A stretch of 64,000 nt of DNA from Bacteroidales bacterium (GTDB lineage Bacteria > Bacteroidota > Bacteroidia > Bacteroidales > F082). The DNA lies in assembly GCA_017549805.1 (NCBI GenBank), contig JAFYNJ010000004.1, positions 62,001 to 126,000 of the forward strand. The letters are read 5' to 3'. The position numbers and the translations under genes were made by a program. This document shows, in pieces, positions 47,543-58,322 of the stretch (positions are counted from its first letter, which is position 1; each line of letters begins with the position of its first letter). The notes below the pieces were generated by a model. The model was not told the DNA's origin, made no database searches, and worked only from the letters and a program-made list of their open reading frames with translations.

Positions 47543-47585
47543 GGAGTTAAGAGTGAGGAGTTAGGAGTTAGGAGTTAGGAGTTGG
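47531..47585. repeat. GTGAGGA/GTTAGGA tandem repeats
   Basis: About seven units of 7-8 bases (GTGAGGA, GTTAAGA, GTTAGGA) run from the last codons of rsmD into the 3' end of the convergent acyltransferase gene. Confidence 0.7.
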
Positions 47586-49371
47586 AGGTATATCCGAAGC
47601 GTTTCCTGACTTCCTTTTGTTCTTCTTCGGTGCCATCCCTGAAGAGCGGCATCACCTCGTTTTCCGGAAAATCGGTAAAGGTCAAGAATAGCAGTGCGTC
47701 AAGCGTGTCGTTGAAGTCGGGATCGACATTGAAGCACAGGAACTTGGCGTTCAGCTTCAAATACTTCTTGAACAGGGTGGGCAGGCGGTATTCGCCGTTG
47801 CTCAGACGGAACATAAACTTGTCGAACTTGTCGATCGACTCCATATTCTCCTTCAACAACACCTCCGAATCCACCTTCAGGAAATCGGGATGGAATGGCG
47901 TGATAGGATGCGCCATATTGGCCAGTTCTGGATTCACGGGATGTTTCTCGGAGACATAGCGGACGATCAGGCTTTGGTAGAACTTCGGGTACCACGAGCT
48001 GATACTGACCGGACCGATGAAATGCTCAATTTCAGGATGCCTGATCACCACCACGGCCAAGCCACGCAGCAGCAGCACCAGCGGCAACACTTCACGTTGG
48101 TATTCCACGGTGACAAAAGAACGGCCGAGCTCAATGGTCTTGCCCAACGTCTTGCCAAAGGACTCGTCAAAGCCGAACAGCGTGCTGACATAGAAGCCCT
48201 TGATGCCTTTGGTTTTCATGATCTCGTTGCCGAAACCGAGACGATAGGCGCCGACAATCTGTTGTTTCTTGTTATCCCAGAGGATCAGATGCTTGTAATG
48301 ACAGTCGAACTCGTCGGTATCGAGGCTCTTGCCGGTTCCCTCCCCGATGAAGCGGAAGGCCTCCTCGCGAAGGCGACCCAACTCGTGCATCAGGTTGGGA
48401 ATGGCATCATAATCGGCCAAGAAACAGTCGAAGGTCGAAGCTGAGAACAGCAGACCCTTCTCACGGATGGACTCCAACTCCTGGATCAGCAGCTGGCGGT
48501 CCCTGGCCGGTTCCACGGGTGCCCATTTCCCTTCGTCCAGAACGGGTTGCTCTTTCTTAACATTCGCCTCCAAGGCGTAGGAACGGCTGCGGAGGTAAGC
48601 CGCCAAATCGGCAGGCTTTTCATACAGTTCCAGTTCAGCGGGCGGGATAGGCTTGCCGATTTGCAGATTGAAGCATTTGTCATGCTTGTTGATCAGCTCC
48701 TTGGTCAGGCGCCCTGTGCCCAGCATGGTATGGATCTTATCGACCGTATAGAACCATTTCGAGTTACGTCCATCCCAATACACCGGAATCACCGGAACGC
48801 CCGCATTTTTGATGAGACGAGCGATGGAGTTGCTCCAAGGCAGATCTTCAGGAAAGTCATGGCCATGGTAGCGCGACACCTCGCCTGCCGGGAAAACGCC
48901 CAGGCCATTACCAGCCGCAATATGCTGCACGGCACCTTTGATACCGCCCACGCTGCTCTTCCATTCAGGATTTTTCTCGAAAGGATTCACCGAGAAAAAG
49001 CATTCTTTCAGGTTCGGGATATGCGATAAGATGAAGTTGGCCATGAGTTTGAAATCGGGCCGCACCTTGGCGATGGCGCTCAAAAGCATCACACCCTCGA
49101 TACCCCCGAAGGGATGGTTGCTGACCATCACAAAGCCGCCTTCCTTGGGGATGCTCTCCAAATGCTCGGGACTGACATCGATGGTGATGTGCATGTTTTC
49201 CAGCAGATGGTCGGCAAATTCACGCCCCTGATAATCGGCGGCGCCATCGAAAAGGCGGTTGATCTTTCCCAAACGGAGATAGCCGTAGGCCAATCCGGCC
49301 ACACAACTACCGAAGAAGCCCTTCAGTCCTAGGGCTTTTTTCAAATCCGATTTGGTTACAACTTGCCTCAT
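47575..49371 (-). CDS. Bifunctional acyltransferase: PlsC-like O-acyltransferase fused to OlsB-like N-acyltransferase (OlsF type)
   Basis: A 598-residue protein. The N-terminal half (about 1-260) is a lysophospholipid-acyltransferase-like domain with the active-site His in VSNHPFGGIEGVMLL (His about 85) and VFPAGEVSRYHGHDF. The C-terminal half (about 300-470) matches the hemolysin/OlsB N-acyltransferase group: LILWDNKKQQIVGAYRLGFG, then IELGRSFVTVEYQREVLPLV, then FIGPVSISSWYP. Separate OlsB/OlsA or GlsB/GlsA pairs make ornithine or glycine lipids. The fused form is known as OlsF and carries out both steps. This gene is therefore likely to make an amino-acid-containing membrane lipid. Head group not determined. 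Confidence 0.82.
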   Translation of the reverse strand: MRQVVTKSDLKKALGLKGFFGSCVAGLAYGYLRLGKINRLFDGAADYQGREFADHLLENMHITIDVSPEHLESIPKEGGFVMVSNHPFGGIEGVMLLSAIAKVRPDFKLMANFILSHIPNLKECFFSVNPFEKNPEWKSSVGGIKGAVQHIAAGNGLGVFPAGEVSRYHGHDFPEDLPWSNSIARLIKNAGVPVIPVYWDGRNSKWFYTVDKIHTMLGTGRLTKELINKHDKCFNLQIGKPIPPAELELYEKPADLAAYLRSRSYALEANVKKEQPVLDEGKWAPVEPARDRQLLIQELESIREKGLLFSASTFDCFLADYDAIPNLMHELGRLREEAFRFIGEGTGKSLDTDEFDCHYKHLILWDNKKQQIVGAYRLGFGNEIMKTKGIKGFYVSTLFGFDESFGKTLGKTIELGRSFVTVEYQREVLPLVLLLRGLAVVVIRHPEIEHFIGPVSISSWYPKFYQSLIVRYVSEKHPVNPELANMAHPITPFHPDFLKVDSEVLLKENMESIDKFDKFMFRLSNGEYRLPTLFKKYLKLNAKFLCFNVDPDFNDTLDALLFLTFTDFPENEVMPLFRDGTEEEQKEVRKRFGYTSNS

Positions 49372-49402: not shown

Positions 49403-51949
49403 TTATTGTTTTAACAGCTTCCTCACACAAGTGCTTCCATTCTGATGAATCATGTCCAAAAAATAGAGTCCCGAAGGCAACTTCGACAGATCCATCGTCA
49501 TCGTCTCGCCCTCGATTTGCTTTTCCGCAACCAGTTGACCCACAACATTATAAACCTTTACTTTCTGCAACATCACTCCTGAAACGGTCACCATTCCGTC
49601 CGTCGGATTGGGAGCAATTTTCCAAGTCTCCATTTCTTCCACTCCGGTAGGAGAATAATAGGCGTGCAGTTCAAAAACGTTGGGTTCGTATTTCCTATTG
49701 GCTGGCGAGGAAGTACAATCCAAAGCGTCGTAATAGGCATAGAGTTGGTAATAATAGTCGCCTTCCACATTGGCAGTGCCGTCGGTATAAGTAAGCGTCG
49801 AGGCATTCAACAGCTTGATTCGCTTGTATTCCCCATCGGCCGTCCTACGGAAGAGCATGTAACCCGCCAATCCGTCACTAATCTCAGGAGCATCCCATTT
49901 CAACTTAATCTTGAAATTGGATGCCAGCTCATAATCCAGGTTCCGGGGAGGATAGCATGGACCGGCGGTGGCGCAAGTCATGTTGGAGAATTCGCTCTCG
50001 CCGCCTTCGCAAAGCACGGTGGCTTGATAGCAGTGACCGCCCATGGTCGCGGTCTCGTCGAGGAACGAATCGCCTGAAGTGACGATACGATGCAGCAAGC
50101 CGTCACGATAGATGTTGTAGCCGTAGCCCGCATCTCCCACAGCTTCCCAGTCAAGTTGGATGTTGTCGCCGTCGGCGGTGGCAACCAGATTGCCCGGCAC
50201 ATCGCATATTTGATCGCTTCCGCAGCCGTTGTTGGTCTCAAAGAAAATCCCGTTCTTCAGATCGGCCGTCGATCCCGAGAACAAATACAAGCTGTTGCCT
50301 TCCGAATCCTTGATGTTGAAACTCATGGTTTCCACCGTATCGACCGGGGCGGTCCAGCCAAAGCTCAGCCTGCCCAGGGGCAATGCCGGCTGGCAAATTG
50401 ACGGCGTGGCGCTGTTCAACGTACATTGCGAAACCTCATGTCCCGCAGCATTATAGATGGTGATGCAACCGCCATCCCAGCCATTGATGCTGGAGGAAGT
50501 CATGACGACTTTCCAGTTGCATGACGGCCCCACTGCGATGCGCTGTGCATTGGCATGCTTCCCGTGACGGCCGTTGGCCGACAGCACATACACCGCGTAG
50601 TGATACACATCATAACGCGGCAGCCCTGCATCCTCAATCTCGATTGTTGCACCAGGCGCAGCATTGGTAATGGTTTGGATGATCTCATTATCGCGCAGCA
50701 CCACCACTTCCGCAATCGACGACAAGGGGGTGCCATCGAGCGTAGTGGTCGGGTTCGTCCAACTGAGCAAGGTACGCAGCTCCGTGTCGGAAGCAGGCAC
50801 CACCGAAAAGTCCTCAGGGGCGCTGGGTGTTTGGTTATAGATTTCGGAGGGCACGAAGTTGAACATGGCGTCGGCGGGATTGGTGTAGGGAGCCTCATCG
50901 ATGATGTACCAGCCATCGCTGCCACCGCCCCACCCCAAGTTGAAGTGGAACATATCCTTGTCATCGTAGCCGTCACAGATAAATGCATGGCAGCCGCCGT
51001 TATCGCAACCGCCGTAATACATGGGCCATCCCATGTCAAACTGCTCCCGCACCATGGTCTTCCATGTCTCCGTTTCAAAGTCGTTGCGCGAATACTGCAC
51101 AATGGCATCGCTATAGTTGAAATAAGTATGCATGACGCCGGGGATGGGGGATGACGCGCCGCCGCTGCCATCGGGGCCATAGCCCATGTCGATGGTCACG
51201 CCGCAATGGAAGCACAGCGTACCCGTGGCCAGTTTTTCCTCTTCTGTCGAATTGTCGTTGAGCACGTATGGCATGTTGGCCCAATCGTAGGTCGTATTAC
51301 CGAAGTCGGCACAAATCTCGCCATAAACCTCATGCACATAGCAATGGCTTCCTATGCCTTGCGCCGGCGATGCCCAAAAACGCATCAGTTGCGACATGGC
51401 TGTGGCGAGGCAACCCACGATGGCATGACCCCCCGATCCGTCGGGATCTTCGGGACAGCAATAGTTATAGGGATAGCTTTGGTCCCATTTGGTCTTGCAG
51501 AGGAAATCGACCCCTTTGCCGCCGTTTCGAGAAATCAGCTGGCCGTGCGAGAGCACTGACTCCCATTCGGCTGCCACCAATGGCGTAGCCGTTGCGTTGC
51601 CTCTTCTTTGCAATTGGATGCTCTTAGCGATGCCGTCCAGGTAATCCGCCAACGCCGGAGGGATGTTGTTCGCGTCGAAAGCCGACTCGTTGGAATAGCC
51701 AATCACAGGACGATAGGAGTCGTCGGCCGCGATGATCACAAAGCCCTGGGTGCCGTAGTTGAACACATAGAAGGCGCCGTTCGGCTCGGCAAAAACCATT
51801 TCAGGTGTTGTATTTCGGAGCTCAACGTTGAATTTCGCCTCGATGAATTTCGCGGCGGCCGTTTGCACCTGCGAGAAATCAACGGGATTGGCTCTCATGG
51901 CCAGTGTGCCTACAAGCAGGACACACAGGGTAAGAAAAAATCGTTTCAT
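49403..51949 (-). CDS. C10 (streptopain-like) cysteine protease with FN3 domains and T9SS tail, copy 2
   Basis: An 848-residue paralogue of the gene at 30343-33120. In order: signal peptide (MKRFFLTLCVLLVGTLAM); inhibitory propeptide (FYVFNYGTQGFVIIAADDSY); catalytic domain with Cys in IVGCLATAMSQLMRFW (about 178), His in GGCHAFICDGYDDKD (about 321) and FHFNLGWGGGSDGWY; FN3-like modules; T9SS sorting domain (KIAPNPTDGMVTVSG, then VKVYNVVGQLV, then PSGLYFLDMIH). Expected to be secreted as a zymogen and surface-attached or released. It stands alone, with a TATTTTTG core at 51976-51983 on this strand. Confidence 0.93.
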   Translation of the reverse strand: MKRFFLTLCVLLVGTLAMRANPVDFSQVQTAAAKFIEAKFNVELRNTTPEMVFAEPNGAFYVFNYGTQGFVIIAADDSYRPVIGYSNESAFDANNIPPALADYLDGIAKSIQLQRRGNATATPLVAAEWESVLSHGQLISRNGGKGVDFLCKTKWDQSYPYNYCCPEDPDGSGGHAIVGCLATAMSQLMRFWASPAQGIGSHCYVHEVYGEICADFGNTTYDWANMPYVLNDNSTEEEKLATGTLCFHCGVTIDMGYGPDGSGGASSPIPGVMHTYFNYSDAIVQYSRNDFETETWKTMVREQFDMGWPMYYGGCDNGGCHAFICDGYDDKDMFHFNLGWGGGSDGWYIIDEAPYTNPADAMFNFVPSEIYNQTPSAPEDFSVVPASDTELRTLLSWTNPTTTLDGTPLSSIAEVVVLRDNEIIQTITNAAPGATIEIEDAGLPRYDVYHYAVYVLSANGRHGKHANAQRIAVGPSCNWKVVMTSSSINGWDGGCITIYNAAGHEVSQCTLNSATPSICQPALPLGRLSFGWTAPVDTVETMSFNIKDSEGNSLYLFSGSTADLKNGIFFETNNGCGSDQICDVPGNLVATADGDNIQLDWEAVGDAGYGYNIYRDGLLHRIVTSGDSFLDETATMGGHCYQATVLCEGGESEFSNMTCATAGPCYPPRNLDYELASNFKIKLKWDAPEISDGLAGYMLFRRTADGEYKRIKLLNASTLTYTDGTANVEGDYYYQLYAYYDALDCTSSPANRKYEPNVFELHAYYSPTGVEEMETWKIAPNPTDGMVTVSGVMLQKVKVYNVVGQLVAEKQIEGETMTMDLSKLPSGLYFLDMIHQNGSTCVRKLLKQ

Positions 51950-51975
51950 GGCATGCAGCTTGATTATTAAAGATG

Positions 51976-51983
51976 CAAAAATA
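51976..51983 (-). promoter_or_regulatory. -7 element TATTTTTG for C10 protease copy 2
   Basis: Minus-strand TATTTTTG, 27 bases before the ATG at 51949. Confidence 0.5.
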
Positions 51984-52075
51984 AAAAAAGAATGGACTGC
52001 AGCTTGTTTTTTCTTTTTCTTCCTTTAGAATCAATTGCTTTGTCCTTTCGGCTTTTTTATTTGGAAATAAAAGCT

Positions 52076-52083
52076 TATTTTTG
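52076..52083 (+). promoter_or_regulatory. -7 element TATTTTTG for the alarmone/partner-switch operon
   Basis: TATTTTTG ends 17 bases before the ATG at 52101. No other promoter core was noticed in the gene junctions up to 57102, which supports a single transcript. Confidence 0.5.
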
Positions 52084-52100
52084 CCCATTATATCAATAAT

Positions 52101-53195
52101 ATGGACTATACTACCCTCAATCCTCACACTCAAAAGCTACTTGAGCAATACCGCCAACTACTGCCCATCTATGAGCAGATGGCTGAGGTGATCCCTGAGA
52201 AATTGAAGGGGTTTTTCGCCGAAGCGAGCATCATCGTGGCTGCCGTGGAGCATCGCGTGAAAACCGAGGAATCCCTCGCCGGAAAGCTCCAACTCAAAGG
52301 AAACAAATACAAAAGCATCCATGATATCACCGACATCGTGGGCATCCGCGTAATCACTTTCTATAATGACGACGTGGACAAGGTGGCCTCCGTTTTGGAA
52401 CGCCTGTTTGAAATCGACTGGGAGAACTCTATCGACAAACGGAAGGCGCATGAAATCGACAGTTTCGGCTACCTTTCCCTGCATTACATCTGCCGCATCC
52501 CCGAGTCGGCCTACACCAATCCAGAGCATCCTGAACTGAACCAAATCCGCTTCGAGGTGCAGATGCGCACCGTCCTCCAACACGCCTGGGCCAACATGAA
52601 CCACGACACAGGCTACAAGAGCGGAGTGGAAATCCCCAAGGTGTATCTGCGCAATCTGAGTCGTCTGGCGGGCATGCTCGAACTGGTGGACGATGAATTC
52701 AGCCGCATCCGTCAGGAACTTGCCGACTATCGCCGACAAGTGCAACATCTTGTGGCTTCAGGCAACCTGAGCGAGGTGCAACTTGACGGCGACGCCTTCA
52801 ACAGCTATCTTCAGATTGGACCTTTCGACGCTTTGACACGCCAAATCGCCTCCATCAATCAGGCAGAGATCCAACCAGTGGACCTCTCCCCTTTCCTGTC
52901 GTTGTTCAAAGCCATGGGATTCAAGACGCTGGGGGATATCGACAAACTTATAAAGGACTATTCCGATGCGGCCTACCAAATCGCCTGTTTCCAAATCGGC
53001 TTGACCGACATCGACATCCTGTCCTCTTCGGTAGCGCCACAAGATCTCTGCACGGCCTACATCCTCAAAAAAGGAGGAGGCTGCCTTGGATTGATGTGGA
53101 TGCTCGACACCTTAAACGGCCCCTCCGAAGTCAATAAAGCGATGGCCGAACTCTTGATGGAACAAACCAAAGATCTTCCCTTCATGAATCAATAA
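52101..53195 (+). CDS. Stand-alone (p)ppGpp synthetase (RelA/SpoT synthetase domain) with extra C-terminal region
   Basis: A 364-residue protein whose residues about 40-185 match the RelA/SpoT nucleotidyltransferase. ATP-site basic residues lie in HRVKTEESLAGKL (Arg52, Lys54, Lys62), the metal Asp in DITDIVGIRVIT (Asp78), the G-loop in SFGYLSLHYIC, and the catalytic Glu-x-Gln in FEVQMRTVLQHAWAN. The N-terminal hydrolase domain of long RelA/SpoT proteins is absent. So are the TGS and ACT domains. The C-terminal 180 residues are helical and not recognised. It should transfer pyrophosphate from ATP to GDP or GTP. The gene for an HD hydrolase follows after 3 bases. Confidence 0.9.
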   Translation: MDYTTLNPHTQKLLEQYRQLLPIYEQMAEVIPEKLKGFFAEASIIVAAVEHRVKTEESLAGKLQLKGNKYKSIHDITDIVGIRVITFYNDDVDKVASVLERLFEIDWENSIDKRKAHEIDSFGYLSLHYICRIPESAYTNPEHPELNQIRFEVQMRTVLQHAWANMNHDTGYKSGVEIPKVYLRNLSRLAGMLELVDDEFSRIRQELADYRRQVQHLVASGNLSEVQLDGDAFNSYLQIGPFDALTRQIASINQAEIQPVDLSPFLSLFKAMGFKTLGDIDKLIKDYSDAAYQIACFQIGLTDIDILSSSVAPQDLCTAYILKKGGGCLGLMWMLDTLNGPSEVNKAMAELLMEQTKDLPFMNQ

Positions 53196-53198
53196 GCT

Positions 53199-53774
53199 AT
53201 GGCAAACAATCCTTTGAATACAGAACTGTTGGACCGCGCCATCATTTTCGCTGTCCAAGCCCATGCGGGCACAGAACGCCGAGGGAAGGGCTTCCCTTAC
53301 ATCGTTCATCCCATGGAAGCCATGGAAATCGTGGCCACGATGACCACCGACCAAGAACTGCTTGCTGCAGCAGCCTTGCATGATACCGTTGAAGACACCG
53401 AAGTGACAGTTGAAGACATCAGGGCGGAGTTTGGCGACAAGATCGCCTCGCTGGTAGCACAGGAAAGCGAAGAGCGACCCGAAGGTGTGAGCGACGAAGA
53501 CAGCTGGCACGATCGTAAGCGAGCCGCCATCGCCCATTTGGCCAAGGCATCCCGCGACACCAAGATCGTAGCATTAGGCGACAAGCTATCCAACATCCGG
53601 GCCATCGCCCGTGACTATGCCGAGCTGGGCGATGCCCTCTGGAAACGCTTTCACGCCAAGGATCCCAAAGACCACGAGTGGCACTACCGAGGACTGGCAG
53701 ACGCCCTCCGTGAACTGGAAGGGACCTTTGCCTTTAAGGAATTCGAACAACTCATCAATCAAGTGTTTAACTAA
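53199..53774 (+). CDS. Stand-alone HD-domain (p)ppGpp hydrolase (SAH/MESH1-like)
   Basis: A 191-residue protein equivalent to the hydrolase domain of SpoT. The Mn-binding and catalytic residues are complete: His37 (FPYIVHPMEAM), His61-Asp62 and Glu65-Asp66 (AALHDTVEDTEV), and Asp128 with Asn132 (VALGDKLSNIRA). It should remove the 3'-pyrophosphate from (p)ppGpp or related alarmones. Placed 3 bases after the synthetase gene, it rebuilds a bifunctional Rel enzyme as two separate polypeptides. It could also act as the enzyme antidote of a toxic synthetase. Its stop overlaps the next start by 1 base (TAATG). Confidence 0.9.
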   Translation: MANNPLNTELLDRAIIFAVQAHAGTERRGKGFPYIVHPMEAMEIVATMTTDQELLAAAALHDTVEDTEVTVEDIRAEFGDKIASLVAQESEERPEGVSDEDSWHDRKRAAIAHLAKASRDTKIVALGDKLSNIRAIARDYAELGDALWKRFHAKDPKDHEWHYRGLADALRELEGTFAFKEFEQLINQVFN

Positions 53775-54604
53775 TGGAAGCTATTAAGATAACTCTCAAC
53801 GACTATGTGCTCTCCGGCGGCGGCGCCAATGGCGAGAGCTATGACCACAAGACCGATCCATCGGTGATGTTGAAACTTTACTTTCCGGGCAAGATCCAAC
53901 AGCCGCTCGACGAGATGAACTTGGCCCGAAAGGTCTATGACATGGGCATCCCCACACCAGAGCCCGGCGAATATGTGGTCACTGAGGACGGCCGCTATGG
54001 CATTCGCTTCAAGCGCATCTTAGGAAAGAAATCCTATTCGCGTGCCACGGCTGACGAACCTGAAAAGGTAGCGCAATTTGCAGACGAATTTGCCCAAATG
54101 TGCCTCAAACTCCATGCTACCCACGTGGACACCAAACAGTTCGAGAATGTCAAGGACCGCTATTACCGCTTGTTGAAGGAGAATCCTTTCTTCACAACGG
54201 CTGAAAAAGACAAGCTGTCCCGTTTCATCGCCAACACGCCCGACGAGGACACCGCCATCCATGGCGACCTCCAATACAGCAATGCCATCTTTGTTGGTAA
54301 CCAACGCTATTTCATCGACTTGGGCGATTTCTGCTGGGGCAACCACCTTTTCGACACGGGAATGGTTTATCTCTGCTGCTGCCTCAGCGACGAGGCCTTC
54401 ATCAAGGAGACCTTCCACATGTCCAAGGCACTGGCCATCCGATTCTGGGAATGCTTTGCAACATCATATTTCGGGAAAGACATCCCGTTAAAGGAAATTG
54501 AAACCTTGATCCGTCCCTTTGCCGGACTCAAGACCTTGATCGTGGAAAGAGACACCAAACGGCCGATGCCCGAAATGCGGGCGGCATTAAAAACCATCTT
54601 ATGA
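53774..54604 (+). CDS. Aminoglycoside/choline kinase-like protein (TIGR02172-like)
   Basis: A 276-residue protein-kinase-like fold. The ATP-binding Lys is in SVMLKLYFPG, the Brenner/catalytic loop is HGDLQYSNAIF (about 156-166) and the metal Asp is in YFIDLGDFCWGN. The N-terminal segment YVLSGGGANGESYDHKTDPS acts as a nucleotide loop. It resembles a group of APH-like proteins of unknown substrate. Being sandwiched between alarmone genes and a phosphatase gene (overlaps of 1 and 4 bases), it may phosphorylate a protein or small molecule of this pathway. That is inference from position. It is not evidence of antibiotic resistance. Confidence 0.82.
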   Translation: MEAIKITLNDYVLSGGGANGESYDHKTDPSVMLKLYFPGKIQQPLDEMNLARKVYDMGIPTPEPGEYVVTEDGRYGIRFKRILGKKSYSRATADEPEKVAQFADEFAQMCLKLHATHVDTKQFENVKDRYYRLLKENPFFTTAEKDKLSRFIANTPDEDTAIHGDLQYSNAIFVGNQRYFIDLGDFCWGNHLFDTGMVYLCCCLSDEAFIKETFHMSKALAIRFWECFATSYFGKDIPLKEIETLIRPFAGLKTLIVERDTKRPMPEMRAALKTIL

Positions 54605-56793
54605 AGTCCGACAAAAAAGACCGTAGAAAGCTCGGCATGGCGATGGGAGCCGGATTGTTGCTGGTGATCGTGGCTGCCCTTACACTAGAGGCCACCTCCA
54701 TCATCCAATACCTCTTTGCCCAAAGGGAAATCAAAAAAGAGGCATCGCTTCGCGCAGAGAGCGAACTGAAAAGTGCCGAGAACAAGATCATGGGGGTTGT
54801 AAACCAAGCCGAAGCCGCCGTTCGCAACAGTCTCTGGGTGGCCGAGTGGTGTCTGGAATATCCCGACAGCCTGGAACGGATTCCCCAGCGTGTGGTGAGC
54901 GAAAACCCTGTCGTCGTCGGATCAACCATGGCATTGGTTCCCGGCTCCAACCCACAATATCCCCTGTATGCCCCATACGTCGCGAGAGACCTGGAGACTG
55001 GTGAGTTGAAGATGCTTTCACTGGCCACGGAAGAATACAACTATCCCGACAAGGAATGGTTTACCAAACCTATTGAACTGAACGACAGCTATTGGTCGGA
55101 ACCCTATTTCGACGAAAATGGCGGCGACATCTTGATGACCACCTTTTCCATGCCGGTAAAAGACAAAAACGGCTCGATAGCAGCCATCCTAACTGCCGAC
55201 ATCTCCTTGGACTGGCTCACGGATCTCATCGGTGAGCTCAAGGTTTATCCCAATGCCTTCAACATGGTCGTCAGCCGTAGCGGACAGATCATGGTATGTC
55301 CTATTGAAACGCTGGTGATGCAAACCACCGTTGATCAGTTCGCCATGGAATCGGAGAACTACGAGGCACTTGACCGTGTCAACCGAGCCATGCTATCCGG
55401 ACAGTCAGGCGAGATGCCCGTCCGCTATCTGGGACAGACCAACCATGTTTATTTTGCTCCCGTGGAGCGAACGGGATGGTCCTTGTCGATTGTGCTTCCT
55501 GAAAAAGACCTCTACAGCGGTGTCCGTCGGATTGGAATGATTGTAAAGCTGCTACAACTGTTGGGGCTTGCCATGCTGATTGTCATTCTCAGGGTGGTGG
55601 CCAAAAACCAAATCAAATACCAGCGCATGAACGAACAGAAGGAGCGGATGGAAAACGAGCTTCATATCGCCAGTGAAATCCAGATGGCCATGATTCCCAA
55701 GACCTTCCCACCATTCCCGGATCGGACAGACTTGGATTTCGCCGCTTCCATCGTTCCCGCCAAGGAGGTGGGAGGCGATCTATACGACTATTTCATCCGG
55801 GACGAGAAGCTGTATTTCTGCATTGGCGACGTCTCCGGAAAGGGCATCCCGGCATCGTTGGTGATGGCTGTCACAAGGAGCCTGTTCAGAGCCACCTCTG
55901 CCCATGAAACCAGCCCCCAACACATTGTAACGGCCATGAACAACACCATGTCGGAGTCGAACGAGAGCAGTATGTTCGTGACCTTTTTCTGTGGCGTGTT
56001 GAATCTGGCCACAGGTCAATTGCATTACTGCAACGCAGGCCACAACCCACCGCTTATCCTCACCAAAGACATCCGTCTTTTGCCCGTTCAAGCCAACATC
56101 CCGATCGGCATACAACACGGATTTGTGTACAACGAGCAAGAGGCGCAGTTGCAATATGACGACTCATTGCTGCTTTATACCGACGGACTCACCGAAGCTG
56201 AGAACATGCAATCGCAACAATTCGGCCTCAAACGAGTGGAATCCGTGCTCCGCACCCGCCGCGGTTCGCAGGAGCATCTGGAGGCGTTGCAGGCGGCAGT
56301 GACAAAGTTCGTGGGCGAAGCACCCCAAAGCGACGACCTCACAATGCTCTTCATCCATTATCTTCCCAAGGAGGACGTTCAGTTTAAGGAACGCCATCTG
56401 GAGCTTCACAACGACATCCGACAGATTCCGAAATTGGCTGAATTCGTTGAGGGCATTGCCCAAGAAAAACAGCTGAACCAGAGCCTTGCCATGGGCATCA
56501 ACTTGGCCCTTGAGGAGGCCGTGAGCAATGTGATGCTGTATGCCTATCCCAAGGAAATGGACGGCTTGGTTGAGGTGGATGCGATTCTGCGCAAGGACTC
56601 GTTGGAGTTCGTCATCACCGACAGCGGAGTGCCTTTTGATCCCACCGCCGCTCCCGAAGTCGATTTCAACATCCCCATTGAGGAGCGTCCCATCGGTGGA
56701 TTGGGCATCCACTTGGTACGACAATTGATGGATACCGTCAACTATGAGCGGAAAGAAGACAAGAACTATTTGAAAATGAAGAAAAATCTATAG
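54601..56793 (+). CDS. Membrane sensor PP2C (SpoIIE-type) phosphatase fused to an RsbW-like ATPase
   Basis: A 730-residue protein. In order: TM1 (about 12-32, GMAMGAGLLLVIVAALTLEA); periplasmic dCache-like sensor (about 40-300, EYNYPDKEWFTKPI, DNGG-type ligand region); TM2 (about 307-330); and a coiled coil (about 340-370). The PP2C/SpoIIE domain (about 375-590) has metal Asps in EVGGDLYDYF, IGDVSGKGIPASLVMA and SDDLTMLFI, and also contains CNAGHNPPLIL and LLYTDGLTEAEN. The C-terminal GHKL ATPase (about 600-730) has LALEEAVSNVMLYAYP (N box), ITDSGVPFDP (G1) and GGLGIHLVRQLMD (G2). It should sense a periplasmic signal, dephosphorylate a STAS protein and bind or rephosphorylate it through the ATPase part. 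Confidence 0.92.
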   Translation: MKSDKKDRRKLGMAMGAGLLLVIVAALTLEATSIIQYLFAQREIKKEASLRAESELKSAENKIMGVVNQAEAAVRNSLWVAEWCLEYPDSLERIPQRVVSENPVVVGSTMALVPGSNPQYPLYAPYVARDLETGELKMLSLATEEYNYPDKEWFTKPIELNDSYWSEPYFDENGGDILMTTFSMPVKDKNGSIAAILTADISLDWLTDLIGELKVYPNAFNMVVSRSGQIMVCPIETLVMQTTVDQFAMESENYEALDRVNRAMLSGQSGEMPVRYLGQTNHVYFAPVERTGWSLSIVLPEKDLYSGVRRIGMIVKLLQLLGLAMLIVILRVVAKNQIKYQRMNEQKERMENELHIASEIQMAMIPKTFPPFPDRTDLDFAASIVPAKEVGGDLYDYFIRDEKLYFCIGDVSGKGIPASLVMAVTRSLFRATSAHETSPQHIVTAMNNTMSESNESSMFVTFFCGVLNLATGQLHYCNAGHNPPLILTKDIRLLPVQANIPIGIQHGFVYNEQEAQLQYDDSLLLYTDGLTEAENMQSQQFGLKRVESVLRTRRGSQEHLEALQAAVTKFVGEAPQSDDLTMLFIHYLPKEDVQFKERHLELHNDIRQIPKLAEFVEGIAQEKQLNQSLAMGINLALEEAVSNVMLYAYPKEMDGLVEVDAILRKDSLEFVITDSGVPFDPTAAPEVDFNIPIEERPIGGLGIHLVRQLMDTVNYERKEDKNYLKMKKNL

Positions 56794-56796
56794 ATC

Positions 56797-57102
56797 ATGG
56801 AATTGATTATCGAAAGACAAAATGAGGTTGTAACGGTGTTTCTAAAGGGCCGCCTCGACACCTTGGCAGCGCAGGAAGTGTCAGACCAGATGGAGAGCCT
56901 GACCGAAGCGACTTCAGGCACCGTAGTGCTGGATTGTACTGAGATGACATACATCTCCAGTTCCGGCCTGCGTCTATTCCTCACACTCCGTAAAGCCGCT
57001 GCCGAAAAAGGAGGCAAAGTCATCGTCCGCGGCATCAACAACGATATCCGCAGCGTGTTTATGATGACGGGTTTCTTGAACTTGTTTGAGATAGAATCCT
57101 GA
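56797..57102 (+). CDS. STAS-domain anti-sigma factor antagonist-like protein
   Basis: A 101-residue single STAS domain. The switch site lies in VVLDCTEMTYISSSGLRLFL (about 47-66). The SSSG there is where RsbV/SpoIIAA are phosphorylated on Ser. It is the natural substrate of the PP2C and GHKL domains encoded 3 bases upstream, so the genes make a partner-switch pair. No RsbW-like stand-alone protein or sigma-B-like factor is in the window. The downstream target is therefore unknown. It converges on the dicarboxylate symporter gene with 11 bases between stops. Confidence 0.93.
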   Translation: MELIIERQNEVVTVFLKGRLDTLAAQEVSDQMESLTEATSGTVVLDCTEMTYISSSGLRLFLTLRKAAAEKGGKVIVRGINNDIRSVFMMTGFLNLFEIES

Positions 57103-57113
57103 CGAACTTGGGG

Positions 57114-58322
57114 TCATAGATTCTTTCCCAAAAATCTTTGCATCACCACGGCGCATGAGGCATCGCCGGTAACGGACATGACGGTGCGCCCCATGTCGAT
57201 GATGCGGTCGATGCCGGCAGCCACTGCCACGCATTCGACAGGGATGCCCGCCGAGGCGAACACCATCGCCATCAAGGCCAAGCTGCCGCCTGGAATGCCT
57301 GGTGTGCCGATGGAAGCCACCGTAGAGGCGAATGCGATGGCCAGATACTGACTCATGGTGAGGTCGATGCCGCAGCAATTGGCCATAAACACCGAAGCCA
57401 CACCCAGATAAATGGCCACGCCGTCCATATTAATCGTCGCACCCAGCGACAGCACAAAACGGCCAATGTCTTTATTGACGCCCAACTTCTCCGTACACTG
57501 CATCGTATAGGGCAAAGTGGCCACCGACGAGTCGCTGGAGAAAGCGAACAGCATGGCGGGCTGCATGCCCTTGAAAAACTTCAGTGGCGAGAGACGACCT
57601 AACAACCCAACCGTAGAGGAATAGACCACTCCTGCGTGGATGAAAAAGCAGAGATAGGCCAAGGCTAAAAGAGCCGCGTAAGAACCCAACACCGCCGGAC
57701 CGTTGTCAACCACCACGGGAGTCAGCATGCAGAACACCCCTATGGGAGCCAGCGCCATGATGTACTCCAAAATCTTGCCCACCACATCATTGAAGCTGAG
57801 CGTCACCTTCCGAGCCATCTCGCCCTTCTCCCCCACATGGACCATGGCGATGCCAAAAAACAAGGCGATCACGATGACCTGCATCATCGCCATCGAACTC
57901 AGTGGCGAGAGGATATTGTTAGGGAACATATTCACCAACTGATCCATCACCGTAAGATGCGGCGTCTCGATGGCAGCCGCTGTCGCATCCGTGCTGATGT
58001 GGATGACCGGCAGGACACCCTTCAGCAAAGAGGGCACAACCAATCCCAACGTCACTGCAAAGAGAGTCGTCGCCATGAAATAGATCAAGGCACGGAGTCC
58101 CAGTTTGCCCACCTTCTTGATGTCGTTCATCGAGAGGATGCCCGCCATGATGGAGAAAAGCACCAAGGGTACAACGATGAACTTCAAAAGGTTCAGGAAG
58201 ATGATGCCGATGGGCTTGATATACTGGTTGACAAAGTCCGCCTGGTTGCGCAATAGCACACCGGCTATTACCGCAAGCACCAAGGCGATGCCAATTTGAG
58301 CGGTTAGGGATGGCTTTTTCAT
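57114..58322 (-). CDS. Dicarboxylate/amino acid:cation (Na+ or H+) symporter, DAACS family
   Basis: About 402 residues from MKKPSLTAQIGIALV (an ATG at 58331 is also possible). The GltP/DctA fold has 8 spans and two re-entrant loops. Family motifs are SSDSSVATLPYTMQC (HP1), GATINMDGVAIYLG (TM7 NMDG Na+ site) and SIGTPGIPGGSLALMAMV (HP2), followed by ECVAVAAGIDRIIDMGRTVM. It imports C4-dicarboxylates or acidic amino acids. The Arg in DRIIDMGRTV would favour acidic side chains. It is monocistronic and convergent with the STAS gene. Confidence 0.93.
   Translation of the reverse strand: MKKPSLTAQIGIALVLAVIAGVLLRNQADFVNQYIKPIGIIFLNLLKFIVVPLVLFSIMAGILSMNDIKKVGKLGLRALIYFMATTLFAVTLGLVVPSLLKGVLPVIHISTDATAAAIETPHLTVMDQLVNMFPNNILSPLSSMAMMQVIVIALFFGIAMVHVGEKGEMARKVTLSFNDVVGKILEYIMALAPIGVFCMLTPVVVDNGPAVLGSYAALLALAYLCFFIHAGVVYSSTVGLLGRLSPLKFFKGMQPAMLFAFSSDSSVATLPYTMQCTEKLGVNKDIGRFVLSLGATINMDGVAIYLGVASVFMANCCGIDLTMSQYLAIAFASTVASIGTPGIPGGSLALMAMVFASAGIPVECVAVAAGIDRIIDMGRTVMSVTGDASCAVVMQRFLGKNL

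Follow-up and report, generated by a model that had tools for sequence, protein, structure and literature searches.

The question raised by this locus is why enzymes predicted to make and remove alarmones, a kinase of the APH fold and a partner switch are kept together in a single row of genes. The locus occupies positions 52101-57102 of a 64,000-nucleotide stretch of contig JAFYNJ010000004.1 from a Bacteroidales bacterium, and the whole of this stretch is called the window below. The best reading, which is drawn by analogy, is that the module would be a SiaABCD-like partner switch with an alarmone synthetase as its target in place of a diguanylate cyclase. Five plus-strand open reading frames follow each other with junctions of +3, -1, -4 and +3 bases (from the open reading frame list and the sequence), and at least one Pfam model scored above its curated cut-off in each of the five proteins. 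The coordinates and the gene identities of the first-pass annotation (synthetase, HD hydrolase, APH-like kinase, phosphatase and STAS protein) were confirmed in this way, and the features are given here with the names used below.

52076..52083, plus strand: Bacteroides-type -7 promoter element TAnnTTTG, 17 bases upstream of the first ATG
52101..53195, plus strand: SYN, 364 amino acids (aa); predicted small alarmone synthetase domain at about 1-210 and C-terminal helical domain at about 211-364
53199..53774, plus strand: HD, 191 aa; small alarmone hydrolase
53774..54604, plus strand: KIN, 276 aa; APH-fold kinase near TIGR02172
54601..56793, plus strand: PHO, 730 aa; membrane sensor, SpoIIE-type PP2C phosphatase and HATPase_c_2 (HAT) kinase domain
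56797..57102, plus strand: STAS, 101 aa; anti-sigma-antagonist type with the phosphoserine motif Y-I-S-S-S-G-L

The first-pass annotation had made the meaning of this linkage depend on whether the gene order is found beyond this strain, and the set recurs far beyond it. SYN was strongly matched in 40 of 149 same-family genomes (own genome included), all of the same genus, and weakly in 5 more (P0001 search). Six strong SYN matches came from outside the genus in an order-wide sample of 393 genomes; they belong to four other families and all six have the linked set. In a phylum-wide sample of 395 genomes 23 had a SYN match, only the own genome lying below E 1e-60 (the next was 1.6e-59). At 19 distant or weak SYN loci the other module components were not labelled in any.

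The gene set was then tallied by tblastn. The named relatives are the best 80 of 296, they are metagenome-assembled Bacteroidales (mostly ruminant by their titles), and the tallies were made on the 71 of 80 loci having at least 4.5 kb downstream. Near SYN and on the same strand, HD was present in 69, STAS in 67, HAT in 66, KIN in 63 and PP2C in 63 of these 71 loci, whereas the C10-protease and dicarboxylate-symporter genes which flank the module in the window, used as a control, were matched near SYN in 1/71 each. Both flanks were available for 58 named loci; all five genes were on one strand in 49 of them and in the window order in 39 (intervening genes ignored). From 121 distinct SYN, a wider set of 96 loci was taken whose flanks were each 3.5 kb or longer (those of the window were set by hand as sufficient), counting either strand within about 6.3 kb and including distant KIN paralogues and fusions under KIN. 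Here HD was found in 94, STAS in 90, HAT in 89, KIN in 88, PP2C in 83 and the complete set in 78; these rows, most of them species representatives from a single clade, are not independent of one another. The linkage is not accidental and is far above that of the flanking genes.

The 78 complete sets fall into nine arrangements, for which the SYN tree requires no fewer than 11 changes (quick method); the count rises to 21 arrangements and 27 changes, some of them losses, once partial sets are added. This cohesion of the set despite 11 or more rearrangements is the strongest evidence for a joint function of its parts. The neighbourhoods of 39 same-family loci were also read. Eight have the window order, and 22 have an arrangement (type B) in which KIN is divergent from a (PP2C-)HAT-STAS-SYN-HD row and still adjacent to it, the KIN of L069 being a remnant. 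PP2C is missing beside four type B loci (L051, L052, L058 and L059), L053 has the type B arrangement without KIN and PP2C, L062 has a PP2C stretch near, beside its HD::KIN fusion, and two further loci are cut (L072) or truncated (L071). In G072, the genome of L058, a lone Cache-PP2C protein was seen (L219, 4308-6248), and this phosphatase may supply the L058 module in trans. Such rearrangement bears on a simpler explanation, namely that the genes are only co-expressed in answer to the same starvation signal, with no direct contact between the switch and alarmone metabolism. An operon layout gives co-expression by itself, but KIN is divergent yet adjacent in the 22 loci just described, complete sets persist through the rearrangements, and HD and KIN are fused at some loci (below); we regard co-expression alone as quite improbable.

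The membrane protein PHO carries the sensor and both enzymes of the switch. A dCache/PDC region lies between two hydrophobic stretches at about 13-35 and 310-335 (by eye), and the Pfam scores in bits (cut-offs in brackets) were SpoIIE 170.9 (25), MCP-like_PDC_1 90.4 (27), dCache_1 58.3 (45) and HATPase_c_2 88.9 (27.4), so that the Cache domain of the first-pass annotation is upheld by two PDC/Cache models. STAS scored 65.1 bits with Pfam STAS (22.6) and 66.7 bits with TIGR00377 (53.45). Residues D48, D65, D183, D233 and D234 of PP2C are kept in at least 98% of 90 distinct sequences, E43/E44, N48, D79 and G81 of HAT in at least 98% of 99 (within-domain numbers for both), and S54, S55, G57 and L58 of STAS in at least 98% of 100; the catalytic residues are kept in all enzymes of the module. 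The HATPase_c_2 domain of PHO is the predicted, and expected, kinase of STAS. The PP2C-GHKL-STAS set annotated earlier is thus present in its domains, although here GHKL (HATPase) forms part of the phosphatase protein, while many relatives encode it as a gene of its own. PHO holds the only SpoIIE domain found in its own genome at the threshold used; two other HATPase_c_2 genes there have an equal score of 52.7 bits, and one of them lies among hydrogenase/PHP-like genes (by eye).

On the alarmone side, SYN scored 68.7 bits with RelA_SpoT (cut-off 27), and it has the conserved catalytic residues and the fold of a small alarmone synthetase. It reached 60.8 bits with the curated equivalog GTPPhKinYjbM (NF053588), which asks for 320, so it is a relative of YjbM and not YjbM itself. 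SYN is thus predicted from its sequence to be a small alarmone synthetase of the RelP/RelQ kind, with an alarmone as its probable product. It shares catalytic fold and residues with RelP/RelQ (YwaC/YjbM) and differs from them in having roughly 150 further residues, which form a C-terminal domain, and an operon with its own hydrolase and switch. The own genome has three RelA_SpoT domains, those of SYN and of two long open frames of 737 and 747 aa, which by their length would be long Rel proteins. HD scored 72.8 bits with HD_4 (27.2), and its best solved relatives are 7qoe, 4yf1 (Lmo0812) and 7qoc (E 8e-24 to 9e-20). With an HD_4 domain and intact HD/ED metal residues it has the marks of a small alarmone hydrolase, and H37, H61, D62, E65, D66 and D128 are kept in at least 98% of 116 distinct sequences. 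A locus from a different family of the order, L201 (5414-8595), has a distant HD-like gene (28%) which overlaps an 864-aa frame with a SYN-like domain.

A synthetase beside an HD hydrolase, as in 94 of the 96 loci, is also the layout of toxSAS/SAH toxin-antitoxin pairs, in which case SYN and HD would act by ppApp synthesis or by tRNA pyrophosphorylation, triggered by the switch and KIN and possibly serving defence; HD is then only a putative antitoxin. We keep this explanation because PADLOC gave a defence-candidate match for SYN. SYN resembles CapRel in chain length and in the common catalytic fold. It appears however to be nearer to ordinary small alarmone synthetases in sequence and fold, and the module has three further signalling genes, unlike toxSAS and CapRel; the toxin explanation is very unlikely in our estimation.

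The third protein, KIN, scored 47.1 bits with APH (PF01636; cut-off 23.2) and has the catalytic residues and the fold of an APH-fold kinase. With TIGR02172 (NCBIfam) it reached 220.5 bits over the full profile against a cut-off of 228.2, which places it next to this kinase-like paralogue family and not inside it. A solved relative of KIN was not found by sequence (best E 0.033 with P0003 and 0.064 with a profile), and its fold matches are scattered over aminoglycoside, choline, methylthioribose and macrolide kinases, so that they do not indicate the substrate. KIN is single copy in its own genome at the thresholds used. True HD::KIN fusions were found at seven loci (L043, L056, L062 and L195-L198), those of L043, L056 and L062 joining HD to a distant KIN paralogue; eight of twelve candidate HD+KIN frames (308-333 aa) proved to be over-extended start codons and not fusions. 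Co-inheritance was followed in 35 same-genus genomes at least 90% complete, drawn from 20 listed genomes that lack SYN (19 taken) and 21 that have a strong SYN (16 taken). Full-length KIN was present in 13/16 genomes with SYN against 0/19 without it; G041 had only a 68-residue fragment, and the search found none in G014 and G098. Fusion therefore ties KIN to HD, and co-inheritance ties it to SYN, not to the sensor. Two ideas on KIN are not supported. That it is an aminoglycoside-resistance gene was rejected as the default reading, since it is an operon gene and occurs only with SYN in the 35 genomes. The first-pass annotation saw in KIN the link that would connect the sensor with alarmone level; this is not supported, as HATPase_c_2 is the expected kinase of STAS and KIN is fused with HD and absent from 19/19 SYN-less genomes.

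The nearest known system is SiaABCD of Pseudomonas aeruginosa, in which SiaC is reported to bind and activate the diguanylate cyclase SiaD (PMC8457831, PMC7647112) and the genes are reported to be co-transcribed. This precedent indicates that a STAS-like protein is able to switch on an enzyme which makes a nucleotide messenger (PMC8457831, PMC7647112). The likeness to the published system consists of one operon with a PP2C phosphatase, a kinase, an anti-sigma-antagonist-like switch protein and a nucleotide-messenger synthase, and the present module likewise has a sensor PP2C and a STAS with conserved phospho-acceptor beside a synthase gene. It differs in that the candidate target is a RelA/SpoT-type synthetase and not a GGDEF protein, the switch kinase, a HATPase of RsbW type, shares a chain with the phosphatase, an extra hydrolase and an APH-fold kinase are present, and PHO scored only 49.9 bits with the SiaA equivalog model (cut-off 700).

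On this analogy we propose a self-contained operon in which the partner switch would control a dedicated alarmone pool through the synthetase, and we give this proposal about an even chance. PHO would sense a periplasmic ligand through its Cache domain and would act on the STAS serine with its PP2C domain as phosphatase and its HATPase domain as kinase. In one of the two states, probably without the phosphate, STAS would bind SYN and alter its output as SiaC does for SiaD; HD would remove the product of SYN and so reset the signal. KIN may act beside HD on the same nucleotide, on a derivative of it or on HD itself, and in many relatives the output probably includes an operon-encoded membrane transporter. 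The first-pass annotation had likewise coupled a periplasmic signal to alarmone level: its coupling gains from the non-accidental linkage, the intact catalytic residues and the Cache-type domains, while a change in alarmone level as the output is what we infer.

How tightly the switch belongs to the synthetase was judged from its occurrence elsewhere. A strong SpoIIE domain (E <1e-40) is present in 16/16 of the same-genus genomes with SYN and also in 6/19 of those without it, and in nine of 12 phosphatase loci examined the PHO-STAS pair lies away from SYN, six of the nine being in SYN-less genomes. The switch is thus an input cassette that can be reused, and KIN goes with the synthetase instead. 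Several stand-alone cassettes were seen in their surroundings. At L212, L213, L215-L218 and L221 an NMT1-like binding protein, a Cache-PP2C-HATPase protein and STAS stand together away from the synthetase, and those of L212, L213, L215 and L216 adjoin ABC transporter-like genes (family-tested for L212). At L214 (4980-8895) the pair is beside an apparent peptide-synthetase condensation-domain gene and at L222 (2-7255) beside an apparent phosphopantetheinyl transferase and a large gene (both by eye).

Trees of PP2C, HAT and STAS were made by a quick method from 45, 45 and 44 selected rows with nine stand-alone cassettes. A single clade of SYN-linked cassettes was rejected by the approximately unbiased test (p-AU 0.0007 for PP2C, 0.006 for HAT and 0.022 for STAS), which means that switches were repeatedly recruited by the synthetase or that the synthetase was repeatedly lost. 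Exchange was further examined in eight module loci with an NMT1-like binding-protein gene before PHO, together with L135. The best matches of their STAS were 73-85% to Cache-type modules against 45-50% to stand-alone pairs; for HAT they were 53-63% to stand-alone pairs against 50-53% to Cache-type modules, and for PP2C 57-64% against 55-60%. In the STAS tree six binding-protein-type rows group with 12 Cache-type module rows (support 97). Sensor types vary between loci while the module-type STAS is retained, and on balance STAS appears from these comparisons to follow the SYN-bearing locus more than the sensor type.

Other genes join the module at some loci. An antiporter of the Na+/H+-exchanger family is beside or inside the operon in 34/71 named loci, placed after STAS, between PHO and STAS, after HD or before SYN, and to account for its presence the SYN tree requires no fewer than 13 changes. 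The two that were scanned (L139, 4638-6140; L150, 11188-12675) have Na_H_Exchanger and TrkA_C domains. The antiporter is a predicted candidate for the output of the signal. As a constant part of the module it was rejected on these 34 of 71 loci and on the own genome and two close relatives, in which it was not found while three known-positive genomes matched as controls. A Y_phosphatase3-like gene adjoins SYN, STAS, HD or a KIN paralogue at L043 (11077-11901), L056 (9635-10468), L062 (4143-4976), L101, L103, L127 and L200, the family being confirmed for L127 only. An amino-acid-type ABC transporter is beside SYN or HD at L120, L122 and L126, with apparently the same neighbourhood at L049 (by eye) and L050 (by gene lengths); at these five loci a synthetase without nearby switch or kinase may serve transporters in another wiring.

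These stand-alone cassettes and transporters suggest another explanation, in which the switch acts on KIN, on an adjacent transporter or on a distant anti-sigma target, and SYN-HD is a parallel branch which answers the same condition. Several observations weigh against control of the synthetase by the switch. The PHO-STAS pairs away from SYN, in SYN-less genomes (L212-L217) as well as SYN-bearing ones (L218, L221 and L222), mean that the cassette is not specific to alarmone synthesis, and SYN is found without switch and KIN nearby at L044, L049, L050 (these three being SYN-HD only), L112, L120 and L126. The PP2C of binding-protein-type loci is by mean identity nearer to Cache-type modules, L214 and L222, though stand-alone, have a STAS that the tree places close to those of modules, and the tree tool gave long-branch warnings. 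The C-terminal domain of SYN was a candidate for the docking site of STAS. It is 42-61% identical to that of the window in five diverged clade loci (L042, L056, L196, L199 and L200), L056 being without STAS nearby and yet among them, whereas in ten orphan synthetases elsewhere in the phylum it is 8-15% identical while the core is still 29-44%. In six STAS-less loci it is not clearly relaxed (four are within the normal range, and L062 and L120 are marginal, falling slightly below the 5th percentile for rows with STAS), so that a docking role is no more than a candidate one; it tracks the clade as well as the module.

The other-target explanation is favoured by this lack of clear relaxation, by the nine stand-alone phosphatase loci, by the neighbourhood of four of them (L212, L213, L215 and L216) to ABC-transporter and binding-protein-like genes and by the recurrence of antiporters. 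Against it, L095, L150 and L053 keep STAS beside SYN-HD without a phosphatase, the best STAS match follows the SYN-bearing locus and not the sensor type, and the own genome has one SpoIIE protein and no antiporter match, so the antiporter cannot be an obligatory target. Taken together, we consider it rather unlikely.

Two more groups of known systems were compared with the proposed switch-synthetase module. RsbU/RsbW/RsbV and SpoIIE/SpoIIAB/SpoIIAA also consist of a PP2C phosphatase, a HATPase_c_2 kinase and a STAS with conserved serine, whereas the constant neighbours of the module are SYN, HD and KIN. A sigma factor was not recognised in the gene set or among those recurrent neighbours that were examined, and such a target may lie elsewhere. 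Mycobacterium tuberculosis offers a similar adjacency in Rv1364c-Rv1365c-Rv1366, with a PP2C-HATPase-STAS protein (Rv1364c) near a RelA/SpoT-domain gene. We know of no dedicated hydrolase or APH kinase in that neighbourhood. Rv1366 is reported not to make (p)ppGpp (PMC8622095) and Rv1364c to tune SigF (cited in PMC8622095). The first-pass annotation knew of no characterised system of this composition, and neither such a system nor a report that connects alarmone synthetases with partner switches was among the matches listed in the open-licence PubMed Central literature, where different wording may hide one.

The single promoter core noted in the first-pass annotation was found again, as 52076-52083 is the sole plus-strand TAnnTTTG within 51900-57200; we take this motif to be the Bacteroides-type -7 consensus. 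It occurs within 120 bases upstream of the matched SYN start in 33/78 named loci (2 of the 80 having less than 200 bases upstream are left out), where 0.05 per 120 bases is expected from the window-wide frequency and the upstream DNA is more A+T rich. A scan of 51900-57400 for E. coli-type sigma-70 promoters found 7 sites, where shuffles had 4.2 (standard deviation, sd, 1.9), and terminator-like sites were 4 against 6.2 (sd 2.6), both plus-strand ones being intragenic; neither scan is informative for this organism. The gene downstream of STAS is convergent and 11 bases from its stop. Upstream, on the minus strand, are a C10 (streptopain-type) peptidase with Spi inhibitor propeptide and Por secretion tail (49403-51949, Pfam) and a protein joining an Acyltransf_2/acyltransferase part and a GNAT Acetyltransf_5 part (47575-49371, Pfam), perhaps an aminolipid synthase.

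Alarmone synthesis answers starvation, envelope stress and phage. That many related species keep the gene set despite changed gene order points to a coupling of an outside signal with alarmone level that is so far undescribed. A membrane sensor acting through phosphorylated STAS would be a new route from the outside to alarmones, and would show partner switches controlling a second nucleotide messenger besides cyclic di-GMP. The antiporter and the HD-kinase fusion raise the questions of what KIN phosphorylates and whether TrkA_C domains sense alarmones, and as the set is present in many ruminant-gut Bacteroidales, study in vitro is possible from many orthologues. A more extended picture, which we hold to be unlikely, is that an extracellular ligand acts through the switch to set a private alarmone pool apart from the two long Rel enzymes, that KIN, fused or coupled to HD, makes or clears a phosphorylated form of this alarmone, and that the signal gates an operon-encoded TrkA_C antiporter or other transporter. 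If true, the alarmone would be a local controller of ion or solute transport, like cyclic di-AMP in Gram-positive bacteria.

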